Positions 7,266 to 43,831 of a DNA stretch of 64,000 nucleotides are shown here, one piece after another. The position numbers were made by a program, and so were the translations under genes. This stretch comes from Gimesia maris (GTDB taxonomy: Bacteria > Planctomycetota > Planctomycetia > Planctomycetales > Planctomycetaceae). The stretch covers positions 1,322,001 through 1,386,000 of the forward strand of contig NZ_CP042910.1 of assembly GCF_008298035.1 (NCBI RefSeq), in the 5' to 3' direction. The first letter of the stretch is position 1. The number at the start of each line of letters is the position of its first letter. The notes under the pieces were generated by a model. It worked only from the letters and a program-made list of their open reading frames with translations. It had not been told where the DNA came from and searched no databases.

Positions 7266-8759
7266 ATGATTGATCGCCCTGGTGAAGATGAATCAAAAGA
7301 TGCCTCCGGGCAGGCATTCCGGGAAACCGACTCACAACATGATTTGAATGACCTGTATAGTGATCTGTTTCCCGGATCGCAGGCAGGGGAGTGGAAGCAA
7401 CCGGAAAAAAAAGCAAATGCTTCTGCCGCTGCAGCGAAACAGGATCATTCCATCCCGGCCCCCAATACGCTGGAGCAAACAGGCCTGTCATTAAACCAGC
7501 TGTGCAATCTGGTGTTGAAGCAGCTGTATCTGCAGGGCAGTGCCCTGGGGATCGAAATCTCGCGCAGCGCCCATCTGCCGTTCACCATCATTGATACAGC
7601 GCTGGTGTTTCTGAAAGATGATAAATGCATCGAAGTCACGTCCGGCAATCTGATTGGACGTTCTTCGTACCGCTTCAATCTGACCGAGTTGGGACGGATT
7701 CGGGCGCGGGAAGCATTCGAGCAATGCCGTTATGTGGGGCCGGCGCCTGTGCCTTTAGACGCGTATGTCAAACAGTGTGCCCTTCAGACCGTGGTCGGGA
7801 TCGACTGCACTCCGGAGCGGCTCGAAGCTGCCTTTTCCGACTTCATTATTCGAGAAGGGCTGCTGGACGAACTCGGACCAGCGGTCTGCAGTGGGCGCTC
7901 CATCTTTATCTATGGTCCTCCGGGTAATGGTAAGACCTTAATTGCCAAAGGCCTGGGACGTTTTCTGAATCGGCAGGGGGGAGAAATTTATATCCCTTAC
8001 GCGCTGCAGATGGAAAACAGCATCATCACGCTGTTCGATCCAACCATTCATCAGACCACCGACGATCTGGAACTGCAGGATCGGGCACCCACCGATCTGC
8101 AGAAGGGGAGTCGGATTCCGGAAATGAAGGACTGGGCCAAGCCCGAAACCGACCTCCGCTGGAGACGCATCAGACGTCCTGTTGTGATTACCGGCGGAGA
8201 GCTCAATCTGGAAATGCTGGACCTGCGTTACAACAAAGTCAGCAACTTTTATACAGCGCCCCTGCACATCAAAGCCAATGGGGGCGTGTTCCTGATCGAC
8301 GACTTTGGTAGACAACTCGTCAGTCCAAAAGACCTGTTGAACCGGTGGATTATGCCGCTCGAAGACCGGATTGACTACCTGACACTGGCTACCGGAAAGA
8401 AATTTGCGGTTCCGTTCGAACAATTAATCGTCTTTTCAACCAACCTCGATCCGAAGGAACTGGTTGACGAAGCGTTCCTCAGACGCATACGTCATAAGAT
8501 CGAAATCACTGCCCCGCCTCAAGATGTGTTCACAGAGATTGCCAGACTCTGTTGTCGGCAACGTGATATTGAATATGACCCAGTTTTTGTAAATTACCTG
8601 TATGACAATTTCTACAAGCAGGGAAAAGCGCCCCGATCGAGTGACCCGCGAGATTTACTGGAGATTATTCAATCAATTTGTCGATTTAAAGGAAAGAAAC
8701 CCGTTCTATCCGCTGAATTAATTTCAGAAGCAGCGCAACGTTTCTTCTGTCAATTATAA
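7266..8759 (+). CDS. AAA-type ATPase with N-terminal winged-helix-like region
   Basis: A 497-residue cytoplasmic P-loop ATPase. The first 75 residues are low-complexity and probably disordered. Residues about 75-150 look like a winged-helix domain (LSLNQLCNLVLKQLYLQGSA, with RFNLTELGRIRAREAF at its end). The Walker A motif is GPPGNGKT near residue 217, and Walker B is GVFLIDDFGRQ near 340. LIVFSTNLDP (sensor 1) and AFLRRIRHKIEI (arginine finger/sensor region) follow. This resembles uncharacterised AAA proteins found near secretion or pilus genes, but none of those genes are here. It lies between a secreted protein and a TPR lipoprotein, all on the plus strand. Confidence 0.85.
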   Translation: MIDRPGEDESKDASGQAFRETDSQHDLNDLYSDLFPGSQAGEWKQPEKKANASAAAAKQDHSIPAPNTLEQTGLSLNQLCNLVLKQLYLQGSALGIEISRSAHLPFTIIDTALVFLKDDKCIEVTSGNLIGRSSYRFNLTELGRIRAREAFEQCRYVGPAPVPLDAYVKQCALQTVVGIDCTPERLEAAFSDFIIREGLLDELGPAVCSGRSIFIYGPPGNGKTLIAKGLGRFLNRQGGEIYIPYALQMENSIITLFDPTIHQTTDDLELQDRAPTDLQKGSRIPEMKDWAKPETDLRWRRIRRPVVITGGELNLEMLDLRYNKVSNFYTAPLHIKANGGVFLIDDFGRQLVSPKDLLNRWIMPLEDRIDYLTLATGKKFAVPFEQLIVFSTNLDPKELVDEAFLRRIRHKIEITAPPQDVFTEIARLCCRQRDIEYDPVFVNYLYDNFYKQGKAPRSSDPRDLLEIIQSICRFKGKKPVLSAELISEAAQRFFCQL

Positions 8760-41097: not shown

Positions 41098-41865
41098 TCA
41101 GGCCGACGCCTTCGAGGTGTCGGCCTGTTTTTTTTCCGACTCAGTCTCCTCCTGCTCGATTTCTTCGCATCGTTTTCGATCTGCTTCATCAACTTCCTCC
41201 TGGTCCAGATCAAATTCTTCGATCAACTCACGACGTCGTAATGTGACCTGGCGATCAAATTCACTCAGCACATCCAGGGCGCGATCGCGCGACGTCACGA
41301 GACCGATAATCAGATATTGGGTAATCGCGATTCCATAACAGACCCAGCCCACGGTTCCTTCCGTCGTTGCAGACAGAATCGCAAATACCGGCGAAGATCG
41401 GTTGATATGCTGACAGACAATTCCTTTCAAAATCAGCCGCCATTTTTCTTTTAACTCTCGCCAGATTCCATACTCCCGGGACAACTTTAATGAGGGAGGG
41501 CCTGGGTGAATAATAGAAAACAGTTCCTGGTCAGGCATGGCTTCAATTACACCAATCGCCAGGAGAATACGCAGTCCTGTCAGGATCGAAAGCTCGGTTC
41601 CCTGCAGGCTCAGCGGTACCCAGCCTGCAAATAGTGCCGACTCCATATTCGCGGTGGCAGCCAGCAGCAACAGGGAGCCACGAAACCACTGTTCCAGGTC
41701 TTTTTCAAGCTCGTCATCAATCTCCTGAACTCGGATGACCTTGTTCAGCATCAGGTGGAAGATCGGAATCGCAATCAGCCCGATAAAAAATCGCATTAAA
41801 GGTTTCAACAGGATGCGAATCAATCCACCCACAATAATTCCTATCTGATCGAAGGGTATTAGCAC
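41098..41865 (-). CDS. Polytopic membrane protein of unknown family
   Basis: A 255-residue protein starting with GTG at 41865 behind GGGAG (spacing about 7). Hydrophobic segments lie at about 5-40 ([16 protein letters not shown]), 66-85, 90-105 and 160-190 ([20 protein letters not shown]). The C-terminal 60 residues are highly charged and probably cytoplasmic ([20 protein letters not shown]). I do not recognise it. It lies directly downstream of the retron RT gene on the same strand, but a strong terminator separates them, so it has its own promoter. Being beside a retron it is a candidate effector, but that rests on position only. Its last codons double as the topA terminator. Confidence 0.75.
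41099..41135 (+). terminator. topA terminator, lying inside the neighbour's coding sequence
   Basis: CAGGCCGACGCC (41099-41110) and GGTGTCGGCCTG (41116-41127, one G-T pair) form a 12-bp stem with a TTCGA loop, followed by eight T. It sits within the last codons of the convergent membrane-protein gene, which ends at 41098. Confidence 0.93.
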
Positions 41866-42011: not shown

Positions 42012-43286
42012 TTACCAGCGTATCTGTTCATAGAGATGCAGTAAACGTTGTCCCCGCTTCGGATTGAGTTGCTGGACATAAGCCACACGGCCGCGCAGGT
42101 GACTGGCAAAATCTGGATGATTCTCGCGGTTCTGAGTTCCCGGACCCTGGCGAATGCAGTTTGTGAGAATGGCTTTCAGCAGATCAAATTCTTTGCGTGG
42201 CACATTCGGGTGCTCGTTCACGACGACGCCTGTGACTTTCTGCTGTTGATTCTCTCGCAGTATGCGGCGTTTCATGTGATTCACCTGGAATCGTTCTGAC
42301 CGGATAATCTGATTGACCAGCGGAAGAAATACCTGTAATGATCGCAGAAACTGTTCCGATCCGGAAAAGGTCAGATCGTCGGCATAGCGTGTGTAGTCGG
42401 CATCGAAGGCGCGTGCCAGACCGGAAAGTCGTACGTCCAGCGAATAGGCCGACAGGTTCGCCAGGGCAGGGGATGTAGAAGCGCCTTGAGGCAGATGACG
42501 CGACAGGTAAGGAACCAGCGGTCGCAGGCTGCCATCCGGAAAAGGCAGGCTCATGGGAATCACGGAAGTCGTCAACCGCGCCAGATACAGAGATGCTTCA
42601 CGACAGTAACCCAGGTTGCGAAAGATGGCAACGACGCGGGAAAATTTGACACTGGTATAAAAATTCTCCAGGTCAAATTTCACAACCACACGTTTGCCCG
42701 TATGAGGAGTTGCATTCGTCACTGAAGAGCGGCCTCGTACAAATCCATGCGCAGCGGTGTGTACGGGGATCTGGTTTAAGATCTCATGCAGGATCTGCTG
42801 CTGTGCCATTTTTAGAAACGGGCGCGGTGATTCGATCAGGCGAAATCCGGATCGTTTCGGCTTCCAGTGATAAATATAATGTGAGTCCTGTGCATCATCC
42901 GGGCGATCAAATTGTGTGAAACGATGCGTCAGCCAGGCCAGCTTACCCAGAGGAATATTCAGCCACTCAGCGAGTTCGACAGGCGTCGAGAACAGGGGCA
43001 GTTCGTATCGCGCCAGTTTTTCAGTATCGCCGTCTCTGGTCATATCATAATAATGACCGGTCCGCGCTCCATAGCGTGCCAGCTCATAAGGGGGCGCTGC
43101 CACTTCTTCGATATTCTCGACCCGGCTCGAATGACTGCTGCTGTAGCGCAATGGTTCCAGTGTGGTTTTGCGTCGAGGCTGCCGGCTGCTGGTCTCTTCC
43201 GGGACGGGAGCGGACTCTACTGGCGAGACAGTCTGGCTCGGGGGAGAACCGAAGAAGATCCGTCGTAAGAAATCAAATAAACCCAT
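42012..43286 (-). CDS. Retron-type reverse transcriptase
   Basis: A 424-residue RT. The domain spans about 96-424 with all key motifs: HGFVRGRS (180-187), NATPH (191-195, the retron NAxxH motif), FDLENFY (204-210, catalytic Asp), LPQGASTSPALANL (265-278), YADDLTFSG (301-309, the catalytic Asp pair) and VTGVVVNE (351-358, the retron VTG motif). Group II intron maturase and endonuclease domains are absent. Residues 1-95 are an extension of low complexity with a hydrophobic start (GLFDFLRRIFFG); RTs of this kind usually begin near the LAEWLNI helix (105). A msr-msd-like RNA lies 62 bases upstream, and a terminator follows. Retron RTs make msDNA, used by phage-defence systems; no known effector is fused or co-transcribed here. 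Confidence 0.96.
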   Translation of the reverse strand: MGLFDFLRRIFFGSPPSQTVSPVESAPVPEETSSRQPRRKTTLEPLRYSSSHSSRVENIEEVAAPPYELARYGARTGHYYDMTRDGDTEKLARYELPLFSTPVELAEWLNIPLGKLAWLTHRFTQFDRPDDAQDSHYIYHWKPKRSGFRLIESPRPFLKMAQQQILHEILNQIPVHTAAHGFVRGRSSVTNATPHTGKRVVVKFDLENFYTSVKFSRVVAIFRNLGYCREASLYLARLTTSVIPMSLPFPDGSLRPLVPYLSRHLPQGASTSPALANLSAYSLDVRLSGLARAFDADYTRYADDLTFSGSEQFLRSLQVFLPLVNQIIRSERFQVNHMKRRILRENQQQKVTGVVVNEHPNVPRKEFDLLKAILTNCIRQGPGTQNRENHPDFASHLRGRVAYVQQLNPKRGQRLLHLYEQIRW

Positions 43287-43335: not shown

Positions 43336-43347
43336 TAAAAAAATGAC

Positions 43348-43517
43348 CAGCGGGCCGCACAACCGATCCTGTGACGAAGTGTTGCTACGATAAGCGTCTA
43401 TCGTAGCGACACTTCAAGTGTCGATGCATGGTCAATCCTTCTCCCACGGGGTATCCCCGCAGAACTCTGAGCGATCCGTCAAGATTCAGTCAGAGTCAGA
43501 ACTTGTGCGACCCACTG
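43348..43517 (-). ncRNA. Retron msr-msd non-coding RNA
   Basis: The minus-strand transcript of this 170-base stretch has retron architecture. CAGTGGGTCGCACAA (a1, 43517-43503) and TTGTGCGGCCCGCTG (a2, 43362-43348) pair over 15 bp with two G-U pairs. Right after a1 comes a G (position 43502), the candidate branch guanosine. The msr side then holds hairpins GACTCTGA/TCAGAGTT (43497-43490 with 43470-43463), CGGGG-ATA-CCCCG (43459-43447) and CGACACTT-G-AAGTGTCG (43423-43407). The last overlaps a long msd-like hairpin with 17-bp arms (43415-43399 and 43392-43376, one mismatch) and a 6-base loop. Reverse transcription would begin beside a2, near 43363. The exact msDNA ends cannot be read. Confidence 0.85.
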
Positions 43518-43533
43518 CCCATTATGTCTGCAA

Positions 43534-43561
43534 ATCGTAGCCTTTTCGTGAGATGCGTCAA
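43534..43561 (-). promoter_or_regulatory. Candidate promoter of the retron RNA
   Basis: On the minus strand TTGACG (43561-43556) and TACGAT (43539-43534) are 16 bases apart, matching five and four of the six consensus bases. Transcription would start near 43527, about 10 bases before the a1 arm, as expected for a retron RNA whose 5' end lies close to a1. Confidence 0.55.
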
Positions 43562-43831
43562 TGTTAAGTCTTGCGAATCTGACCATTGCATCCATTTTCT
43601 CTCAGGATAAAAGTTTAGTAAGCCGATGCGATCAATCGAACAGAACTTGGCGCTGAATCCGACATTCGGAACTGCAATTGCTTCGATTTCCAGACCCGGC
43701 TACAGTGCGACCAATTCAGAGGCTCACGGGAGTGCATTCTCATGCCAAATCAGATAAGCTGGCGCGGTCCTGGCGGAACGAATATGCGATGCGCCGGAAA
43801 TAGATAGATATACATACAGAAAGTTGAGCAG

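Follow-up and report, generated by a model that had tools for sequence, protein, structure and literature searches.

Retrons studied in recent years are mostly patchily distributed, mobile phage-defence modules that carry an adjacent toxin. A retron locus in the planctomycete Gimesia maris is inherited like an ordinary gene, has a promoter-like sequence ahead of its RNA and lies beside no obvious toxin, and thus asks what a retron that has become a standing part of a lineage does. We analysed this locus within a 64,000-nucleotide stretch of the genome (the window, to which all coordinates refer unless a locus is named) and in relatives from the same family. An open-access literature search returned no paper on a planctomycete retron, in keeping with the original prediction that these elements are little studied. 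We are highly confident that, taken jointly, the locus is a retron, it descends vertically and its RNA is an independent gene.

The retron RNA and its reverse transcriptase

Positions 43521–43344 of the minus strand form a 178-nt msr-msd RNA element that lies 57 bp upstream of the gene for a reverse transcriptase (RT). The features of the locus, all on the minus strand, are as follows.

43534–43561, minus strand: putative sigma-70-like promoter of the ncRNA, judged from sequence layout, with TTGACG (43561–43556), a 16-nt spacer and TACGAT (43539–43534)
43503–43521, minus strand: a1, the 5′ arm of the inverted repeat, pairing with a2 at 18 of 19 window positions
43502, minus strand: candidate branch (priming) guanosine after a1, in CAAGT, proposed from its resemblance to the retron AGC motif (PMC6868368)
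43465–43495, minus strand: msr hairpin 1, from the fold, variable across the family
43444–43462, minus strand: msr hairpin 2, CUGCGGGG-AUA-CCCCGUGG, nearly invariant, with 99.5% of cells paired
43376–43415, minus strand: msd hairpin, 7 bp and 10 bp on either side of a 1x1 mismatch, from fold, consensus and covariation
43363–43373, minus strand: CACAGGAUCGG, preceding a2 and conserved in the family RNA alignment; by analogy, the predicted start of the reverse-transcribed template
43344–43362, minus strand: a2, the 3′ arm of the inverted repeat, from alignment, covariation and fold
43337–43343, minus strand: T-run right after a2, a terminator-like ncRNA end, from comparison of T-rich tails
42012–43286, minus strand: retron RT of 424 aa (Pfam RVT_1, 4.3e-19; PADLOC RT_other, 3.9e-129)
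43248–43286, minus strand: hydrophobic, amphipathic N-terminal helix of the RT, MGLFDFLRRIFFG, modelled as helix over residues 3–12 and recurring in the family
43110–43241, minus strand: disordered linker of the RT, residues 16–59, pLDDT under 50
42702–42716, minus strand: NAxxH motif (NATPH, residues 191–195) of retron region X; N191, A192 and H195 are invariant in 14 RTs
42375–42386, minus strand: YADD catalytic motif (residues 301–304), invariant in 14 RTs
42228–42236, minus strand: VTG motif (residues 351–353) of retron region Y, mostly VTG among 14 RTs
41098–41865, minus strand: downstream gene for an all-helical protein of 255 aa, probably membrane-bound, next to the RT in 35 of 75 family loci

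Folding of the minus-strand region 43540–43287, the check that had been proposed for the locus, gives −109.1 kcal/mol (z = −7.85), and none of 200 shuffled sequences is equally stable. The 15-bp helix with two G-U pairs that had been claimed for 43517–43503 and 43362–43348 is present exactly on the minus strand, as the inner part of a longer one: pairing continues past a G.G mismatch to 43521 and 43344, so that the a1/a2 helix (43521–43503 with 43362–43344) comprises 18 bp and one mismatch. Directly after the 5′ arm stands the expected G, at 43502, which is invariant in all 55 family RNAs aligned. The anticipated 17-bp hairpin corresponds to the msd hairpin, which covaries, and the order a1, G, msr hairpins, msd hairpin, a2 and then RT is borne out. 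All three short hairpins that had been proposed appear in the window fold. Comparison backs two of them; the third, a weak hairpin at about 43440–43416, is absent from the consensus structure and was dropped. Hairpin 1 is shrunken or missing in some relatives (for example, L047, L055 and L080). An Rfam search of the element gave no match.

Covariation was scored on an alignment of 55 diverse RNAs taken from upstream of RT orthologues in the family. Standard pairs occupy 91.3% of cells, and double changes are found at 27 of the 37 pairs, including 15 of the 19 in the a1/a2 helix. The covariation score is 0.436, compared with 0.171 for shuffled alignments; shifting the register by one to three bases leaves no more than 0.109. 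Because the consensus structure was derived from the very sequences scored, the slide control somewhat favours it; the double changes are independent of that choice. The original prediction had staked itself on covariation of a1/a2 and of the long hairpin among relatives that keep the RT. Both covary, and with pairing held at 91% and covariation above the shuffled level, it survives.

The msd hairpin differs in its letters among genera and keeps its pairing. Fast evolution of the msd sequence was considered as a general property and rejected: median within-genus identity is 0.98, and rapid change is confined to some genera. Hairpin 2, by comparison, is nearly constant across the family in the form CUGCGGGG-NUA-CCCCGYGG, and distant relatives also carry a hairpin resembling it. 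This hairpin is probably the element recognized by the RT. At the putative priming site, AAG is found in 57 of 58 family RNAs and is followed by C, A or T, a departure from the usual retron motif (T/C/G)AGC (PMC6868368).

Within the genus of the window, sequence conservation is 0.88–0.98 over 43566 to 43347 and drops to 0.6–0.7 on the 3′ side; that is, it starts at the −35 box, stops at a2, and reaches 0.95–0.98 in the hexamer region. The promoter layout precedes 53 of 58 family ncRNAs, whereas shuffling predicts 5.65, and consists of TTGAC(C/G)-like and TA..AT-like hexamers 15–18 nt apart, mostly 36–40 nt before a1. A T-rich tail follows a2 at 37 of the 58 loci, compared with 4 of 58 in a control stretch further down. 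A simple terminator scan of the window called no terminator at the ncRNA end, as it allows loops of no more than 8 nt. Together, the promoter layout, the T-rich tail and the limits of conservation suggest that the ncRNA is probably transcribed and terminated as its own unit. A second conserved block (43667–43706; 0.81–0.86 within the genus) lies between the retron promoter and a divergent M50 gene.

The RT carries the NAxxH and VTG motifs that had been noted from the sequence, as NATPH and VTG, in addition to YADD. Region Y reads VCG or ICG in one genus described below, in which RNA and RT are split, and IAG or VAG in two others. The AlphaFold model of the RT has a mean pLDDT of 87, and the top Foldseek matches are solved retron RTs, with Ec86 (Eco1) first at 26% identity; Ec86 has the same RNA order. 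Ec86 has a linked effector and a patchy, mobile distribution. After RT_other, the next PADLOC profiles are RT_outgroup (3.4e-122) and RT_XIII (5.4e-105), such that type XIII retrons show second-tier similarity (350.1 bits, against 429.9 for RT_other); unlike type XIII, the window RT has no PADLOC-recognized partner gene beside it. The locus belongs to the unclassified RT_other/outgroup retrons. Two further RVT_1 proteins are encoded in the same genome (G000:C1:3828716-3829306 and G000:C1:4205656-4206204), one of them within a 1,000-aa open frame, and neither is matched by the retron RT search.

Retrons assigned to RT_other or RT_outgroup by PADLOC in Pyxidicoccus, Burkholderia, Rhodococcus and Acidobacteria have RT cores 42–49% identical to that of the window, share its best profiles where tested, and in many cases show weak matches to the same RNA model upstream of the RT. 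For example, a Pyxidicoccus RT is 48% identical and falls in the same PADLOC group, with a weak RNA match (E 0.0077). The planctomycete family differs in its own helix-plus-tether N terminus, in vertical descent and in matching the RNA model far more strongly. The myxobacterial retrons Mx162 (Mxa1) and Sa163 (Sau1) are also reported to be vertically inherited, and their RTs have extended N termini whose function is not known (PMC6868368). We compare them here by description: they share vertical descent and an extended RT N terminus with the planctomycete retron, and differ in the priming site (CAGC in Mx162 and Sa163, AAG(C/A/T) in the family) and in the msd, which is 162 nt in Mx162 and predicted to be about 65–80 nt here.

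Vertical inheritance and a split genus

A covariance model of the RNA recovered about a hundred additional members. With presence defined as E < 1e-10, the RNA occurs in 106 of 170 family species, as a single family-type copy except in G052, where two lie in tandem. A second sample has it in 83 of 121 family genomes, every one of which also carries an RT orthologue, reduced to a fragment of the RT in the case of two drafts. RT-bearing genomes that lack the RNA are G035 and G118, both with partial RTs, that of G118 lying at a contig end. The tandem RNAs of G052 (L080:4253-4399 and L080:3934-4080) lie upstream of one RT and have near-identical msr and different msd stems, and represent a natural duplication.

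Gene order around the retron is identical in all genomes of the genus of the window, two of which have an insertion downstream of the RT, and further out, scattered genera retain the M50 and 255-aa genes as neighbours. In a quick RT tree, all 18 genera with multiple species form single clades, the fewest changes possible. No close relative was found on phages or viral contigs (best 34–38% identity) or on plasmids (47% at most). A mobile-element reading was dropped because synteny and the RT tree contradict it; the retron is a single-copy, near-core element, inherited vertically with losses. It is missing from about a third of family species, including whole genera, and is thus not essential.

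Searches with the RNA model at the order and phylum level gave only weak matches outside the family, upstream of RTs 42–49% identical in several phyla. Five class-level planctomycete relatives have an RT N-terminal domain that is longer than, and different from, that of the family. More broadly, class-level loci L106-L110 and L125-L132 combine such a domain with RTs 45–49% identical and a weak version of the RNA, and constitute a second retron group in Planctomycetes that is sometimes co-resident with the core one.

In the window and most relatives, RNA and RT form a contiguous cassette. This arrangement fails in one genus of three species (G019, G074 and G099), where the RT lies beside its old 255-aa neighbour and the RNA is not there: the RNA model gave no match in 16–17 kb around each RT. 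Each species instead has one full-length RNA (107–114 bits) at a second locus common to all three (L119:8625-8788, L120:8671-8837 and L121:8758-8923), between genes that, read from their translations, are putatively sulfotransferase-like and transporter-like. These unlinked RNAs have their own promoter-like hexamers and T-run, and their pairing is preserved between species despite differing stem sequences. No related RT lies near them, and no other RVT_1 protein in these genomes scored as related to the retron RT. Contig breaks were rejected as the cause of the separation: both elements of G019 and G074 are well inside contigs and the three species share one RNA locus, which in G099 lies some 0.9 kb from the end of a contig. 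Separations of RT and RNA near contig ends in G060, G064, G069 and G098 were left out of the count. The genus apparently carries a natural split retron which, judging from these sequence arrangements, is likely to work in trans. In the limited open-access literature searched, neither a natural split retron nor a membrane-anchored RT of a retron was described.

The RT N terminus and the neighbouring genes

In the AlphaFold model, the RT fold begins only after the disordered linker, which is preceded by the short N-terminal helix (model confidence about 76). Across the family this segment stays short, hydrophobic and mostly amphipathic, to a moderate degree (mean shuffle p 0.16). Median dN/dS values within the genus, taken over few unsaturated pairs, are 0.155 for the helix and 0.47 for the linker, compared with 0.055 for the RT core. 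A transmembrane-like segment replaces the helix in L099 and L100, and L052 has one upstream of the aligned start. We consider it fairly probable that the helix, on its free tether, holds the RT at the membrane. In L043 (G001), the helix and the RT core are in different frames, with the shift in the linker just upstream of position 8181 (RT orientation) and the RNA intact; this is either a sequencing error or a natural separation of the anchor.

Clustering of neighbours at 75 loci revealed no constant companion gene, and PADLOC gave no match for any RT neighbour tested. The 255-aa protein has no Pfam, NCBIfam or PADLOC match and a poor predicted model. Its gene is found family-wide and was rejected as a dedicated effector because it also occurs in genomes without the RT and is often unlinked; it is an ancestral neighbour. 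It is kept beside the RT more often than any other gene, so a functional link is possible. A mutL-like gene lies just beyond it at about seven loci (L045, L047, L049, L060, L082, L089 and L105). Since these represent several genera, mismatch-repair and retron genes appear to be old neighbours, possibly through gene order only. Among the 75 loci there is thus no constant, dedicated candidate for the linked or fused effector that defines a tripartite anti-phage retron, and nothing linked supplies the classical toxin-effector part. Its role could be filled by an unlinked partner or by the N terminus of the RT itself.

Proposed mechanism and role

In the model we propose, the RNA would be made from its own promoter and fold, with a1 pairing with a2. 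The RT would bind the constant hairpin and prime on the 2′-OH of G43502, and copying of the msd would begin just 5′ of a2 and proceed in the direction of the msr hairpins, yielding a branched msDNA with roughly 65–80 nt of DNA. As a separate transcription unit, the RNA would be able to act in trans, and apparently does so in one genus. The helix on its disordered tether most likely keeps the RT–msDNA complex at the inner membrane, and output might pass through the N terminus of the RT or through a core protein encoded elsewhere. The most likely role, put forward with some reservation, is that of a standing, membrane-located sensor or guard complex. More tentatively, the locus may be a domesticated retron, in which a membrane-tethered, effectorless RT and a stand-alone, trans-acting RNA gene, naturally split in one genus, would have been kept by descent across the family to serve some function outside classical toxin-based phage defence.

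A somewhat more doubtful possibility is a housekeeping element whose msDNA serves the cell independently of phage, for instance by binding a repair protein or through regulation at the membrane. The vertical descent and wide retention of the retron, the strong purifying selection on it and its location among metabolic genes are consistent with such a role, as is the proximity of mutL, and the old, vertically inherited myxobacterial retrons (PMC6868368) raise the same question. However, about a third of species have lost the retron, and the mutL linkage may be plain gene order. We weight a guard role against phage somewhat more than a housekeeping role.

It is unlikely that the retron is self-contained, with the N-terminal helix as an effector that is masked in the RT–msDNA complex and, once released, inserts into the membrane and arrests the cell. 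A GLFDFLRRIF-like amphipathic helix does stand at the extreme N terminus on a free tether and is more constrained than that tether, the 75 loci offer no linked effector, and single-gene retrons exist, with RT-Toprim, RT-TIR and RT-protease fusions listed by PADLOC. But the transmembrane-like segments that occur instead in L099, L100 and L052 suggest anchoring rather than toxicity.

Less probable again is a tripartite anti-phage retron in which the 255-aa protein is a toxic effector, held inactive in the RT–msDNA complex until phage disturbs it. Its gene is the most retained neighbour, lies on the same strand, often within 0–60 bp, and is present in nearly all RT-bearing genomes, and the protein is all-helical with hydrophobic stretches. 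Yet at least ten RT-less family genomes keep the gene and many others have it unlinked to the RT; a toxin should not outlast its antitoxin. Old gene order likewise preserves M50 and further core neighbours. Finally, the T-run after a2 and the RT start 57 nt downstream could suggest that the paired region is just a terminator or the 5′ leader of the RT, but the structure is 178 nt long, has an invariant G and an msd hairpin, covaries throughout and is kept far from the RT in one genus, which makes this extremely improbable.

The locus also bears on how such elements are sought and used. Surveys based on gene neighbourhoods would overlook split systems, and retron RNAs that act in trans are of use in genome editing. 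The split genus is a natural experiment, and suggests that a retron RNA and its RT can be maintained together in a lineage without being adjacent.
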